Both the position numbers and the translations under genes were made by a program. A stretch of DNA of 64,000 nucleotides. Origin: Acuticoccus sp. I52.16.1 (GTDB taxonomy: Bacteria > Pseudomonadota > Alphaproteobacteria > Rhizobiales > Amorphaceae). Below, piece after piece: positions 9,592 to 22,612 of the stretch (position 1 is its first letter; every line of letters begins with the position of its first letter). The stretch is taken from the NCBI RefSeq assembly GCF_022865125.1, contig NZ_CP094828.1, positions 3,775,219 to 3,839,218 on the forward strand. The letters are read 5' to 3'. The notes under the pieces are model-generated. The model worked only from the letters and a program-made list of their open reading frames with translations. It did no database searches and had not been told where the DNA came from.

Positions 9592-9633
9592 TGCGGCGCG
9601 CCCTCCGGTCCGCGAGAGCGGGGGGCGCCATGC

Positions 9634-9663
9634 CAGGGGCGGGCCCGTCGCGGGCCGCCCCTG
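9634..9663 (+). terminator. GC-rich hairpin after the esterase gene
   Basis: CAGGGGCGG(g)CCCG pairs with CGGGCCGCCCCTG around a TCG loop, with one bulged G. It lies 43 bp after the stop and has no T-run, so it is a probable but not classical terminator. Confidence 0.4.
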
Positions 9664-9836
9664 CCGACGCGCCTCGCGTGAGAGACGCGCCCGCGAATCG
9701 ACGCGCGTCATTAGGGCTAATGTTAATCTGCGACAACTTTTTTGCCTGAGGCGGAAGATTCCAGGGAACGAATGCCATCGCACGTGACTTCACATGGAGC
9801 CACCAGATCGTTCGTGCCCGGGGAAGGTGTTCTTCT

Positions 9837-10703
9837 ATGTCAACGGAAAATGGATCGCCGCGTCACTTCGTCAAGGCCGCCATGAGCGCCCCCTACCTGG
9901 AACGCGAAGAAGAACACCAACTGGCGCTGAGGTGGCGGGACGACAAGGACGAGAGCGCACTCTCCAAGCTGACCGCCGCCCACATGCGCCTCGTGATCTC
10001 GATCGCGTCGCGCTTCCGTCATTTCGGCCTCGCCATGGGCGACCTCATCCAGGAAGGCCACGTCGGACTGCTCGAGGCGGCCGCGCGGTTCGAGCCGGAG
10101 CGCAACGTGCGCTTCTCGACCTACGCGACGTGGTGGATCCGCGCCTCCATCCAGGACTACATTCTGCGCAACTGGTCGATCGTGCGCGGCGGCACGTCGT
10201 CGACGCAGAAGGCGCTGTTCTTCAACCTTCGCCGGCTGCGCGCCAAGATGGCCCGCAACGGCTCCGGTTCGCCCGACGCGGCGATGTACGAGGAGATCGC
10301 CGCGGCGATCGGCGTCTCCAAGGCCGACGTGGAGCTGATGAACTCGCGCCTTTCCGCGCCCGATACCTCGCTCAACTCCCCGGTCATCGAGAGCGATTCC
10401 TCCGCGGCCGATCGGCAGGATTTCCTCCCCTGCCACGCCCCCCTGCCGGACCAGAACGTCACCGACACGATCGACACCGACCGCCGCTCGCAATGGCTGG
10501 CGACCGCGCTGCACGAGCTGAACGAGCGCGAGCTGCGCATCGTGCGCGAACGCCGCCTGACCGAGGAGGGCGCGACGCTGGAATCGCTCGGCGCCAAGCT
10601 CGGCATTTCCAAGGAGCGCGTCCGCCAGATCGAGAACCGCGCCCTGCAGAAGCTCCGTTCCGCGCTGCTGCGCGACCACGAGCAGCAGGTCTTCGTCAGC
10701 TGA
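9837..10703 (+). CDS. rpoH2: RNA polymerase sigma-32 family factor, RpoH2 type
   Basis: The 288-residue sigma-70 family factor directs RNA polymerase to heat-shock and stress promoters. Region 2 contains A-H-M-R-L-V-I-S-I-A and the core-binding D-L-I-Q-E-G-H-V-G-L-L-E-A-A-A-R-F. The -10 recognition helix reads F-S-T-Y-A-T-W-W-I-R. The RpoH box Q-K-A-L-F-F-N-L-R-R-L is present, and a C-terminal helix-turn-helix follows (G-I-S-K-E-R-V-R-Q-I-E). The start (M-S-A-P-Y-L-E-R-E-E-E-H) and the Q-K-A-L-F-F-N-L box resemble alphaproteobacterial RpoH2. That paralog typically serves the oxidative or singlet-oxygen response under RpoE control. A GGGGAAGG site precedes the ATG. The 3' UTR contains a candidate small RNA. 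Confidence 0.92.
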   Translation: MSTENGSPRHFVKAAMSAPYLEREEEHQLALRWRDDKDESALSKLTAAHMRLVISIASRFRHFGLAMGDLIQEGHVGLLEAAARFEPERNVRFSTYATWWIRASIQDYILRNWSIVRGGTSSTQKALFFNLRRLRAKMARNGSGSPDAAMYEEIAAAIGVSKADVELMNSRLSAPDTSLNSPVIESDSSAADRQDFLPCHAPLPDQNVTDTIDTDRRSQWLATALHELNERELRIVRERRLTEEGATLESLGAKLGISKERVRQIENRALQKLRSALLRDHEQQVFVS

Positions 10704-10756
10704 CCGCGCCCGCGGCCGCGCCGCGGATCCCGCTCGGGGCGGCGCTGTCGTCCTCG

Positions 10757-10840
10757 CCTCGCCGGCGTATCGGCGAGGTGCGTTTTCCTCCCTGATGGGC
10801 TAAGCCGTCTCAGACACCACTGAGGCGGCACTTTTTTTTT
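10757..10840 (+). ncRNA. Candidate small RNA in the rpoH2 3' UTR with a UUUCCUCCCU motif
   Basis: Three elements follow in order. First is a perfect 8-bp hairpin (CCTCGCCG/CGGCGAGG, 10757-10778). Next is the single-stranded TGCGTTTTCCTCCCT containing the ten-mer TTTCCTCCCT (10784-10793). Last is a strong intrinsic terminator. The same ten-mer, preceded by GCG and followed 8 bases later by a terminator stem, occurs in the MmgR-like RNA at 21278-21364. The motif can pair with purine-rich ribosome-binding sites, so antisense control of translation is the natural guess. I see no clear promoter in the 53 bp after the rpoH2 stop, so it may be cut from the rpoH2 transcript. Expression is not demonstrated. 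Confidence 0.55.
10804..10840 (+). terminator. Intrinsic terminator downstream of rpoH2
   Basis: GCCGTCTCAG pairs with CTGAGGCGGC (one G-U pair) around the loop ACACCA. It is followed by AC and nine T residues. Confidence 0.88.
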
Positions 10841-10993
10841 CCGGCTCGGCGGCTGCGGTGCCGGCGCGCGTCGTGGGCGGCGCCGCCTCGCCATCGACCC
10901 GAACGAGGCTCGACCGATCGAGATGTCTGCGACAATGAGGCGGCTGCCGCGTGGCGCGGCCCCGGCCGATGCGCCGACGAGGCCCGCGCGCTG

Positions 10994-11677
10994 ATGGACG
11001 TGAGCATCTGGCCCGTGGTGAGCCTGTCGCTCCAGGTGGCGCTGACCGCGACGATGGCGGCGCTGCCGCTGGCCCTCGTGGTCGCCGTCGTCCTGTCGCG
11101 GGCACGGTTTCCGGGGCACTGGCTCCTCAACGTCCTGGTTCACCTGCCGCTGATCCTGCCGCCGGTGGTGACCGGGTACCTCCTGCTGTTGCTCTTCGGG
11201 CGGCGCGGGGCGATCGGCGCCTGGCTCGCCGACCTCGGCATCGTCTTCGCCTTCAACTGGACGGGCGCGGCCCTCGCCGCCGGGGTCATGTCCTTTCCGC
11301 TGATGGTCCGGGCGATCCGCCTGGCGGTGGACGCGGTCGACGTGCGCGTCGAGGCGGCCTCGCGCAATCTCGGCGCCGGCCCCGTGGCGACGTTCGTGTT
11401 CGTGACGCTGCCGCTGATCGCACCCGGCATCCTCGCCGGCATGGTGATCGCCTTCGCCAAGGCGCTGGGCGAATTCGGCGCCACGATCACCTTCGTCTCC
11501 AACATACCGGGTCAGACGCGCACGCTGCCGCTCGCGATCTACACCGAGCTTCAGGTTCCCGGCGGCGAGGAGGGGGCGCTGGTGCTGGTCGCTATCTCGG
11601 TGGCGATCTCGGTCGTGGCGCTGTTCGGGTCGGAGATCCTCGCCACCCGCACCGCCAAATGGGTGCGCGGGCATTGA
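10994..11677 (+). CDS. modB: Molybdate ABC transporter permease
   Basis: This inner-membrane permease of the high-affinity molybdate importer supplies molybdenum for molybdopterin enzymes. The 227-residue protein has about five to six hydrophobic segments. Its EAA-loop, A-S-R-N-L-G-A-G-P-V-A-T-F, and the L-P-L-I-A-P-G-I-L-A-G and F-A-K-A-L-G-E-F-G-A-T motifs are typical of ModB. modC overlaps its 3' end by 19 bases. No substrate-binding protein gene (modA) is present upstream in the window; the preceding 150 bp contain only the rpoH2 terminator and GC-rich spacer. Confidence 0.93.
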   Translation: MDVSIWPVVSLSLQVALTATMAALPLALVVAVVLSRARFPGHWLLNVLVHLPLILPPVVTGYLLLLLFGRRGAIGAWLADLGIVFAFNWTGAALAAGVMSFPLMVRAIRLAVDAVDVRVEAASRNLGAGPVATFVFVTLPLIAPGILAGMVIAFAKALGEFGATITFVSNIPGQTRTLPLAIYTELQVPGGEEGALVLVAISVAISVVALFGSEILATRTAKWVRGH

Positions 11678-21277: not shown

Positions 21278-21364
21278 CGCGGGACGGCGGTTGTCGTCTC
21301 GCTGCCCTCCTTGGGCGTTTCCTCCCTAGACTTACGGCCGCTCCTCGGAGCGGCCTTTTTTTTT
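21278..21364 (+). ncRNA. mmgR: MmgR/suhB-type (alpha-r8) small RNA
   Basis: The intergenic region carries a short GCCC/GGGC hairpin, then GCGTTTCCTCCCT (ten-mer TTTCCTCCCT at 21318-21327), an eight-base spacer and a strong terminator. As I recall the family (Rfam suhB/mmgR, alpha-r8), UUUCCUCCCU is its invariant unpaired motif. The original suhB RNA was named for its place beside an inositol-monophosphatase gene. In Sinorhizobium meliloti mmgR lies in the same neighbourhood of an IMPase, an N-formylglutamate amidohydrolase and cpdR1. That RNA restrains polyhydroxybutyrate accumulation. The 5' end is inferred from a possible promoter, so it may be off by tens of bases. Confidence 0.72.
21335..21364 (+). 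terminator. Intrinsic terminator of the MmgR-like RNA
   Basis: GGCCGCTCC pairs with GGAGCGGCC around TC and is followed by nine T residues. No protein gene precedes it on this strand, which itself points to a small RNA. Confidence 0.92.
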
Positions 21365-21519
21365 GTCCGGGTGCCGCGTCGCCCACGAGGGGCGGGGCGC
21401 GGTGGGGATCACGCGGTAGAGCGGACAGAGTGTGCCTCCTCAATCTGGGCTACGTCATGGCGAAGCCGGCGCCGGTAATGGCGGTGGCGTGGCGATCGCG
21501 GTCGGGGGGAGGGTGGCCG

Positions 21520-22419
21520 CTACTCGGCGGCCTGCTGCCAGTCCACGCCGGCGTCGTGTGCCATGAACCAGTCGATCAGTCTGGCCGAGGTCGCCATCAG
21601 CGCCAGGCGCAATGCGTCGAAGCCGGCGTTCCGCTCGAACGTCGCCTCGTTCATGTAGAGCGCGCGATTGATCTCGATCTGGATCGCATGGATCATCGGC
21701 GGGTGGCCGTAGCGCTCGGTGATGAAGCCGCCGGCGTAGGGCCTGTTGCGGCCGACGGTGAGGCCCTGGTCGCGCAGCAGCCGCGCGAACTCCTCCGACA
21801 GCATTCCAGAGCAGCTCGTGCCGTAGCGGTCGCCCAGCACCACGTCGATCCGGTTGGGGTCGCCGACATCGTGCCGGATCGCGCCGGAGGGCATGGAGTG
21901 GCAGTCGACCAGGACCGCCGCGCCGAAGTGCTCCACATGCGTCGCCAGCTGGGCGGAGAGGGCGTTGTGATAAGGGTGGTAGAACCGCGTCAGCCGGTCT
22001 TCGGCTTCCGCGGCGGGAAGGTGCGAGGCGTAGATCTCCTGGCCTTCGCCGACGATGCGGGCGATCACGCCGAGACCACTGGCGACGCGCGGGCTGTCGG
22101 CCTGCATCGGCAGAGGAGGGGGCGCGTCGAACATCGACGGGTCGATCTCGCTGGAGCAGCGGTTGAGGTCGAGGAAGACGCGCGGGAAGTGCGCGCGCAT
22201 CAGCGGCGCCCCGAGTGAGGGCACCCCGGCGAACAGTTCGTCGACGAAGGTGTCTTCCGAGCGGCGCAGGGTCAGCCGGTCGAGCCGGGCGCGCGAGAGG
22301 AGCGATTTGGGGTAGGTGGTGCCGCTGTGCGGGGCGCTGAAAACGAAGGGCACCGAAGGAACGGTCGGCTCGATGAGGTCGAACGTCGTCCCTTCGGAAA
22401 AGTCGTCGACGATCAGCAT
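21520..22419 (-). CDS. N-formylglutamate amidohydrolase family protein
   Basis: The 299-residue metalloenzyme hydrolyses N-formyl-glutamate or related N-acyl amino acids. Family motifs include F-S-A-P-H-S-G-T-T-Y near the start and a V-D-C-H-S-M-P segment with metal and catalytic residues. The later I-Q-I-E-I-N-R-A-L-Y-M-N-E block is also typical. The ATG at 22419 is preferred because GGAG lies eight bases upstream; a GTG six bases earlier is too close. It is a paralog of the hutG product at 47338-48132 but is not in a hut context. Here it sits next to cpdR (divergent) and the MmgR-like RNA, a conserved rhizobial arrangement. Confidence 0.88.
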   Translation of the reverse strand: MLIVDDFSEGTTFDLIEPTVPSVPFVFSAPHSGTTYPKSLLSRARLDRLTLRRSEDTFVDELFAGVPSLGAPLMRAHFPRVFLDLNRCSSEIDPSMFDAPPPLPMQADSPRVASGLGVIARIVGEGQEIYASHLPAAEAEDRLTRFYHPYHNALSAQLATHVEHFGAAVLVDCHSMPSGAIRHDVGDPNRIDVVLGDRYGTSCSGMLSEEFARLLRDQGLTVGRNRPYAGGFITERYGHPPMIHAIQIEINRALYMNEATFERNAGFDALRLALMATSARLIDWFMAHDAGVDWQQAAE

Positions 22420-22612
22420 CACCACATCTCCGCTCCGTACAGATCGGCCGTCATACCACGACCTGCGTCGCTGTCAGATCGAATCGATTCGCACGAGCGC
22501 AGTAAGCATCTCCTAAGCGAGACGCTTGACCGCGACTTAAATCGACTGGCCGCAAAGTCCAACTCGTCATTGCAACGAGGGACGCGGCGCTTCTGGGCTG
22601 CGGCGACACACT

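Follow-up and report, generated by a model that had tools for sequence, protein, structure and literature searches.

The rpoH2 locus

The window (the whole 64,000-nt stretch of DNA analysed) carries rpoH2, which encodes a 288-aa RNA polymerase factor sigma-32, at 9837–10703 on the plus strand (NF005693, 462.5 bits; cut-off, 315). The gene order is tannase-family gene, rpoH2, modB. The window's rpoH2 was 86–91% identical to those of seven congeners (89% for the Acuticoccus yangtzensis locus), and judged by this identity the host is an Acuticoccus-like member of the Hyphomicrobiales. Upstream of rpoH2, at 9765–9790 on the plus strand, lies GGAAC-N17-ACTT, which resembles a promoter element of the general stress sigma factor EcfG; this is a pattern match only, and the pattern occurs 10 times within the window. 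GGAAC with a CTT/GTT-type second element was found 61–72 nt before the ATG at seven of the eight rpoH2 loci of the genus, and a looser version at the eighth. In Rhizobium etli, EcfG drives rpoH2, and the EcfG1 motif is GGAAC-N16-CGTT (PMC3892343).

Structure of the element downstream of rpoH2

The rpoH2 stop codon is followed, in order, by 53 G+C-rich nt, an 8-bp hairpin, TGCG, TTTTCCTCCCT, GATGGGCTAA, and a terminator made up of a 10-bp stem and nine T. The hairpin (10757–10778, plus strand) consists of eight perfect pairs, CCTCGCCG/CGGCGAGG, followed by TGCGTTTT; it was called terminator-like in the terminator scan and might in addition serve as a first, weak terminator. The intrinsic terminator occupies 10804–10840 of the same strand, with the stem at 10804–10829 and T9 at 10832–10840. 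Both structures had been described in the initial annotation and were confirmed here. Between them, at 10784–10793 (plus strand), the motif search placed the ten-mer TTTCCTCCCT, which is identical to the core of the alphaR8 RNAs and of anti-Shine-Dalgarno type (PMC12559287). A GCG had been described as preceding this motif; it is present shortly before the ten-mer but not directly adjacent, with one extra T in between. The description of GCGTTTTCCTCCCT as unpaired also held in part. The ten-mer was predicted to be partly open, with a mean openness of 0.57–0.79 versus 0.92 in the alphaR8 RNA of the window, but its CCC at 10790–10792 was predicted to pair with the GGG at 10797–10799 in a weak 3-bp stem, CCC-UGAU-GGG (10790–10799, plus strand), that would partly hide the ten-mer. 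The unpaired probability of each of these C was 0.13–0.20 in the 82-nt form and about 0.65 when the fold began at the rpoH2 stop. The 86 nt of the element gave a fold z of -4.9 and beat all 200 shuffles, a value that is expected because any two strong hairpins would give it.

As had been stated, no promoter of its own is visible: a scan of 9600–11000 found no sigma-70-like promoter, although other promoter types can be missed by such a scan, and the pattern search found no plus-strand EcfG-like site between 9790 and the candidate RNA. The placement of the element, 53 nt past a stop codon and without a visible sigma-70-like promoter, is that of a 3′UTR-derived small RNA on its parental promoter. 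The G+C-rich 53-nt stretch that follows the stop showed no obvious AU-rich cleavage site.

Comparison with alphaR8 and other small RNAs

A genuine alphaR8/MmgR (suhB, RF00519) RNA is located in the same window at 21297–21370 on the plus strand (RF00519, 74.6 bits with a cut-off of 41; model R2, 76.2 bits), which bears out the earlier assignment of an RNA at 21278–21364 to MmgR/alphaR8. The ten-mer is indeed common to both loci, with exactly one further copy in the window, at 21318–21327. The usual neighbour of alphaR8, an N-formylglutamate amidohydrolase (FGase) gene, lies at 21520–22425 on the minus strand (PF05013, 246 bits; neighbour rule, PMC12559287). In alphaR8 RNAs such as MmgR and SisA-D, the core is described as a single-stranded ten-mer that has a weak hairpin on its 5′ side and a Rho-independent terminator on its 3′ side; the family has expanded by duplication and lateral transfer, and Caulobacter SisB-D have their own promoters, with unrelated promoters among alphaR8 siblings (PMC12559287). 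Both the sponge CrfA and a ribosome-binding region are pairing partners of the same ten-mer in Caulobacter (PMC12559287), which supports the proposal that the motif can mask ribosome-binding sites.

Like the alphaR8 RNAs (MmgR of Sinorhizobium meliloti, SisA-D, RF00519), the rpoH2 element is small and has an identical 10-nt core, UUUCCUCCCU, after a hairpin and before a Rho-independent terminator. It differs from them in having a strong GC hairpin of other sequence instead of the weak GCCC-GGGC, in carrying one extra U, in lacking AGACUU after the ten-mer, which is itself predicted to be partly paired, and in sitting in the 3′UTR of a sigma factor gene rather than beside FGase. The FGase-linked member is the RNA at 21297–21370, and siblings need not be linked. 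In the covariance searches that the initial annotation had proposed, with the alphaR8 model and a purpose-built one, the element was not recognised. It reached 14.9 bits with RF00519, below the gathering score of 41. R2, whose training set from related genomes comprised 37 alphaR8 RNAs and siblings and left out the candidate, replaced a first automatic model, R1, that had a poor structure (5 pairs). In the window, R2 placed the candidate second, at 15.2 bits (E 0.041), below only the true alphaR8 RNA; in whole genomes, a score of 15 with RF00519 or R2 is no better than chance, and scores of 15–23 are common as chance matches. A recent duplication of the nearby alphaR8 RNA was considered as the origin of the element and was rejected, as no similarity is visible beyond the core. 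At most, the rpoH2 element would act in the manner of an alphaR8 RNA, and it is not filed as a member of the family.

The alphaR8 siblings of other genomes lie at dispersed sites. One genome of the order, G035, has several in separate places (L216, L221, L222 and L223), three of them with CCTCCCTGAT(A/C)CCACTTTC replacing AGACTT. Altered spacers of the form CCTCCCTGAT(A/C)CC occur three times in G035 and twice in G030, and one sibling with CCTCCCTGACTG occurs in the congener G006. Diverged siblings with CCTCCCTGA, like the rpoH2 candidate, were found three times in G035 and once in G006, with scores of 39.5–43.4 bits. Since altered-spacer siblings exist, a diverged alphaR8 copy behind rpoH2 is plausible. 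G006 carries a second alphaR8-like RNA (L211, G006:C194:34307-34385, minus strand) that reads GATGCCCTTCTTGGGCGTTTCCTCCCTGACTGCCCGGC..., scores 43.4 bits with RF00519, above the cut-off, and has a weak T-tract.

SorX of Rhodobacter sphaeroides is a stress-tied 3′UTR small RNA with a CCUCCCU linker; RNase E helps to excise it, and it prevents a target from being translated (PMC8625941, PMC9438474). The rpoH2 element resembles it in having two hairpins with a CCUCCCUG linker and in its 3′UTR location, whereas the parent gene of SorX is ompR-1, not rpoH2, and the resemblance is not one of shown homology. The CcsR1-4/cuckoo-type RNAs are likewise alphaproteobacterial and carry an anti-Shine-Dalgarno motif, and CcsR comes from a 3′UTR and responds to oxidative stress (PMC8625941). 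SmelA075 and SmelA099 are also alphaproteobacterial RNAs with an anti-Shine-Dalgarno motif; theirs, CCUCCUCCC, is repeated in hairpin loops (PMC3927594), whereas the rpoH2 element has one linear copy of another sequence. Separately, an RNA-like TTTGACGCCTCCCTGTTA followed by a terminator, with a CCUCCCUGUU linker close to that of SorX/SorY, recurs at L131, L215, L228 and L229 (G030, G023, G020 and G028, respectively). The G030 copy reaches 37.4 bits with the SorX model, below the cut-off, and this recurring element could be a Hyphomicrobiales counterpart of SorX/SorY.

Occurrence of the ten-mer and conservation in relatives

The host genome (5.5 Mb) contains five copies of TTTCCTCCCT, two of which precede terminators, both in the window. 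Opposite each of the other three, a purine-rich site lies on the complementary strand, before a FadJ-type gene, an ABC transporter binding protein gene and a short, doubtful open frame, and at least two of these sites are Shine-Dalgarno sites of recognisable genes. The probability that a strong terminator starts 4–25 nt 3′ of a random position was 0.0007–0.0024. When 61 related genomes were searched for the ten-mer followed by 22–52 nt and T6, the matches were nearly always alphaR8 RNAs or terminator-bearing siblings, with about six lacking a convincing terminator; the reversed-pattern control gave 2 matches in all 61 genomes. The probability that ten-mer and terminator coincide by chance in the host genome is roughly of the order of 1–10%, which is unlikely but not negligible, and it rises if the three U of the ten-mer come from the U-tract of the first hairpin.

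The initial annotation had named absence of the motif downstream of rpoH2 in related genomes as grounds for refutation, and for a conserved rpoH2 RNA that refutation holds: behind rpoH2, neither the seven congeners nor about 100 other Hyphomicrobiales loci have CCTCCC and then a terminator in the same arrangement. Because there is no counterpart behind rpoH2 elsewhere, evidence from covariation or selection is impossible. In the closest species (G005) the gene order around rpoH2 is kept, and the UTR has two successive hairpins of another kind, with the motif absent. Several congeners (L008, L009, L011 and L013) have simple hairpin-and-T terminators close behind rpoH2. A DNA search with the rpoH2 UTR in the 61 genomes returned, besides itself, short G+C-rich chance pieces only, and its alignment with the congener UTRs was not clearly better than with shuffles. 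Within the genus, each congener has one place with ten-mer and terminator, the FGase-linked alphaR8 RNA, except for the incomplete draft G001; two such places occur only in the host genome. G001, in which no alphaR8 ten-mer with terminator was found, is 89% complete, so that this is possibly a gap rather than a loss. The absence in relatives is compatible with an rpoH2 RNA specific to the species, which is possible.

Other candidates in relatives were rejected. SorX-model matches were mostly plain terminators and also occurred in control genomes. In G007, an RF00519 match near rpoH2 is located on the upstream side of that gene, in the motif-free terminator of the preceding gene, which apparently encodes ribosomal protein S1, judging by its resemblance to the S1-like frame of the window. 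G005 contains a second exact CCTCCCTGATGGGCT; this copy lacks a terminator and resembles coding sequence.

A predicted target

One of the non-terminator sites offered a predicted target. The ribosome-binding site of the FadJ-type gene, AGGGAGGAAAACG (L001:1501-1522; G000:C1:642829), complements 13 nt of the candidate linker, and the sister species have a different sequence there. Thirteen contiguous pairs over the Shine-Dalgarno sequence were predicted, with a duplex energy of -33.4 kcal/mol, compared with -19.7 for the alphaR8 RNA. Weaker duplexes (-20.5 and -25.3) were predicted for the orthologues of G005 and G002, the two closest species, which are without the RNA. Tiles of the window alone reach -31.5. 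The predicted pairing is suggestive as target evidence, but it is one match picked post hoc in a 5.5-Mb genome where extreme energies are expected somewhere.

Interpretation of the rpoH2 element

The exact ten-mer stands behind rpoH2 in the alphaR8 order of hairpin, ten-mer and terminator. The best explanation in our view, which we hold at about even chances, is that the element is a lineage-specific alphaR8-like 3′UTR RNA that would be made together with rpoH2, would follow general stress and would block ribosome sites with its ten-mer. The rpoH2 3′UTR would end in an RNA of about 80–90 nt with a strong 5′ hairpin, a pyrimidine-rich linker containing the ten-mer, and an intrinsic terminator. 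Since it has no visible promoter of its own, this RNA would be transcribed together with rpoH2, probably from an EcfG-type general-stress promoter. It would then persist as a stable 3′ terminus, or an endonuclease would cut it free close to the stop codon, in the way that RNase E acts on SorX. In association with Hfq, it would pair through UUUCCUCCCU with purine-rich ribosome-binding sites and repress translation, like SisA. Such an RNA would have been gained or remodelled in the host species and would not be ancestral to rpoH2.

The arrangement behind rpoH2 is real and somewhat unlikely, and a serious rival is that it consists of tandem rpoH2 terminators. The first hairpin with TTTT would be an ordinary weak terminator and the second a back-up, the CU-rich spacer would match by chance, and there would be no separate RNA. 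The scan call of the first hairpin would make the UUU of the ten-mer its U-tract and leave only CCUCCCU to chance, and both the simple terminators behind rpoH2 in the four congeners and the two successive motif-free hairpins of the closest species favour such a design. However, the first hairpin has a short T-tract that is displaced by CG, and the full ten-mer, the GCG shortly before it and the strong terminator 10 nt after it coincide, at the per-genome chance estimated above. We regard tandem terminators as a substantial possibility, somewhat short of an even chance. It is improbable, on the other hand, that the element is a diverged alphaR8 paralogue with its own promoter in the coding end of rpoH2 or in the 53-nt gap, independent of rpoH2 expression in the manner of SisB-D. 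The dispersed siblings with unrelated promoters elsewhere (PMC12559287) would suit this explanation, but the promoter scan and the EcfG-like pattern search, within the types that they detect, speak against it.

Membership in, or close relationship to, the SorX/SorY-type 3′UTR stress RNAs of Rhodobacter is very improbable. SorX (RF02784) was the best Rfam match of the element, at 21.4 bits, and the alignment covers CCUCCCUG-U/A-UGG and both hairpins; this score is, however, far below the gathering score of 46.6, and ordinary motif-free terminators also reach 21, for example that behind rpoH1 of the host genome.

A stronger form of the alphaR8-like 3′UTR reading would make the element a recent, general-stress-driven anti-Shine-Dalgarno RNA that forms the repressing, non-coding arm of the RpoH2 response, with a FadJ-type site that matches fully only in the host species. 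We put this forward as a speculative proposal and consider it rather unlikely. If the element is not expressed, it is a warning that chance can place short anti-Shine-Dalgarno motifs before terminators. If it is expressed, the host would have a second alphaR8-type regulator, situated under the mRNA of a stress sigma factor itself, and a young one missing from the closest sister species, so that its birth and the effects on its targets could be followed.
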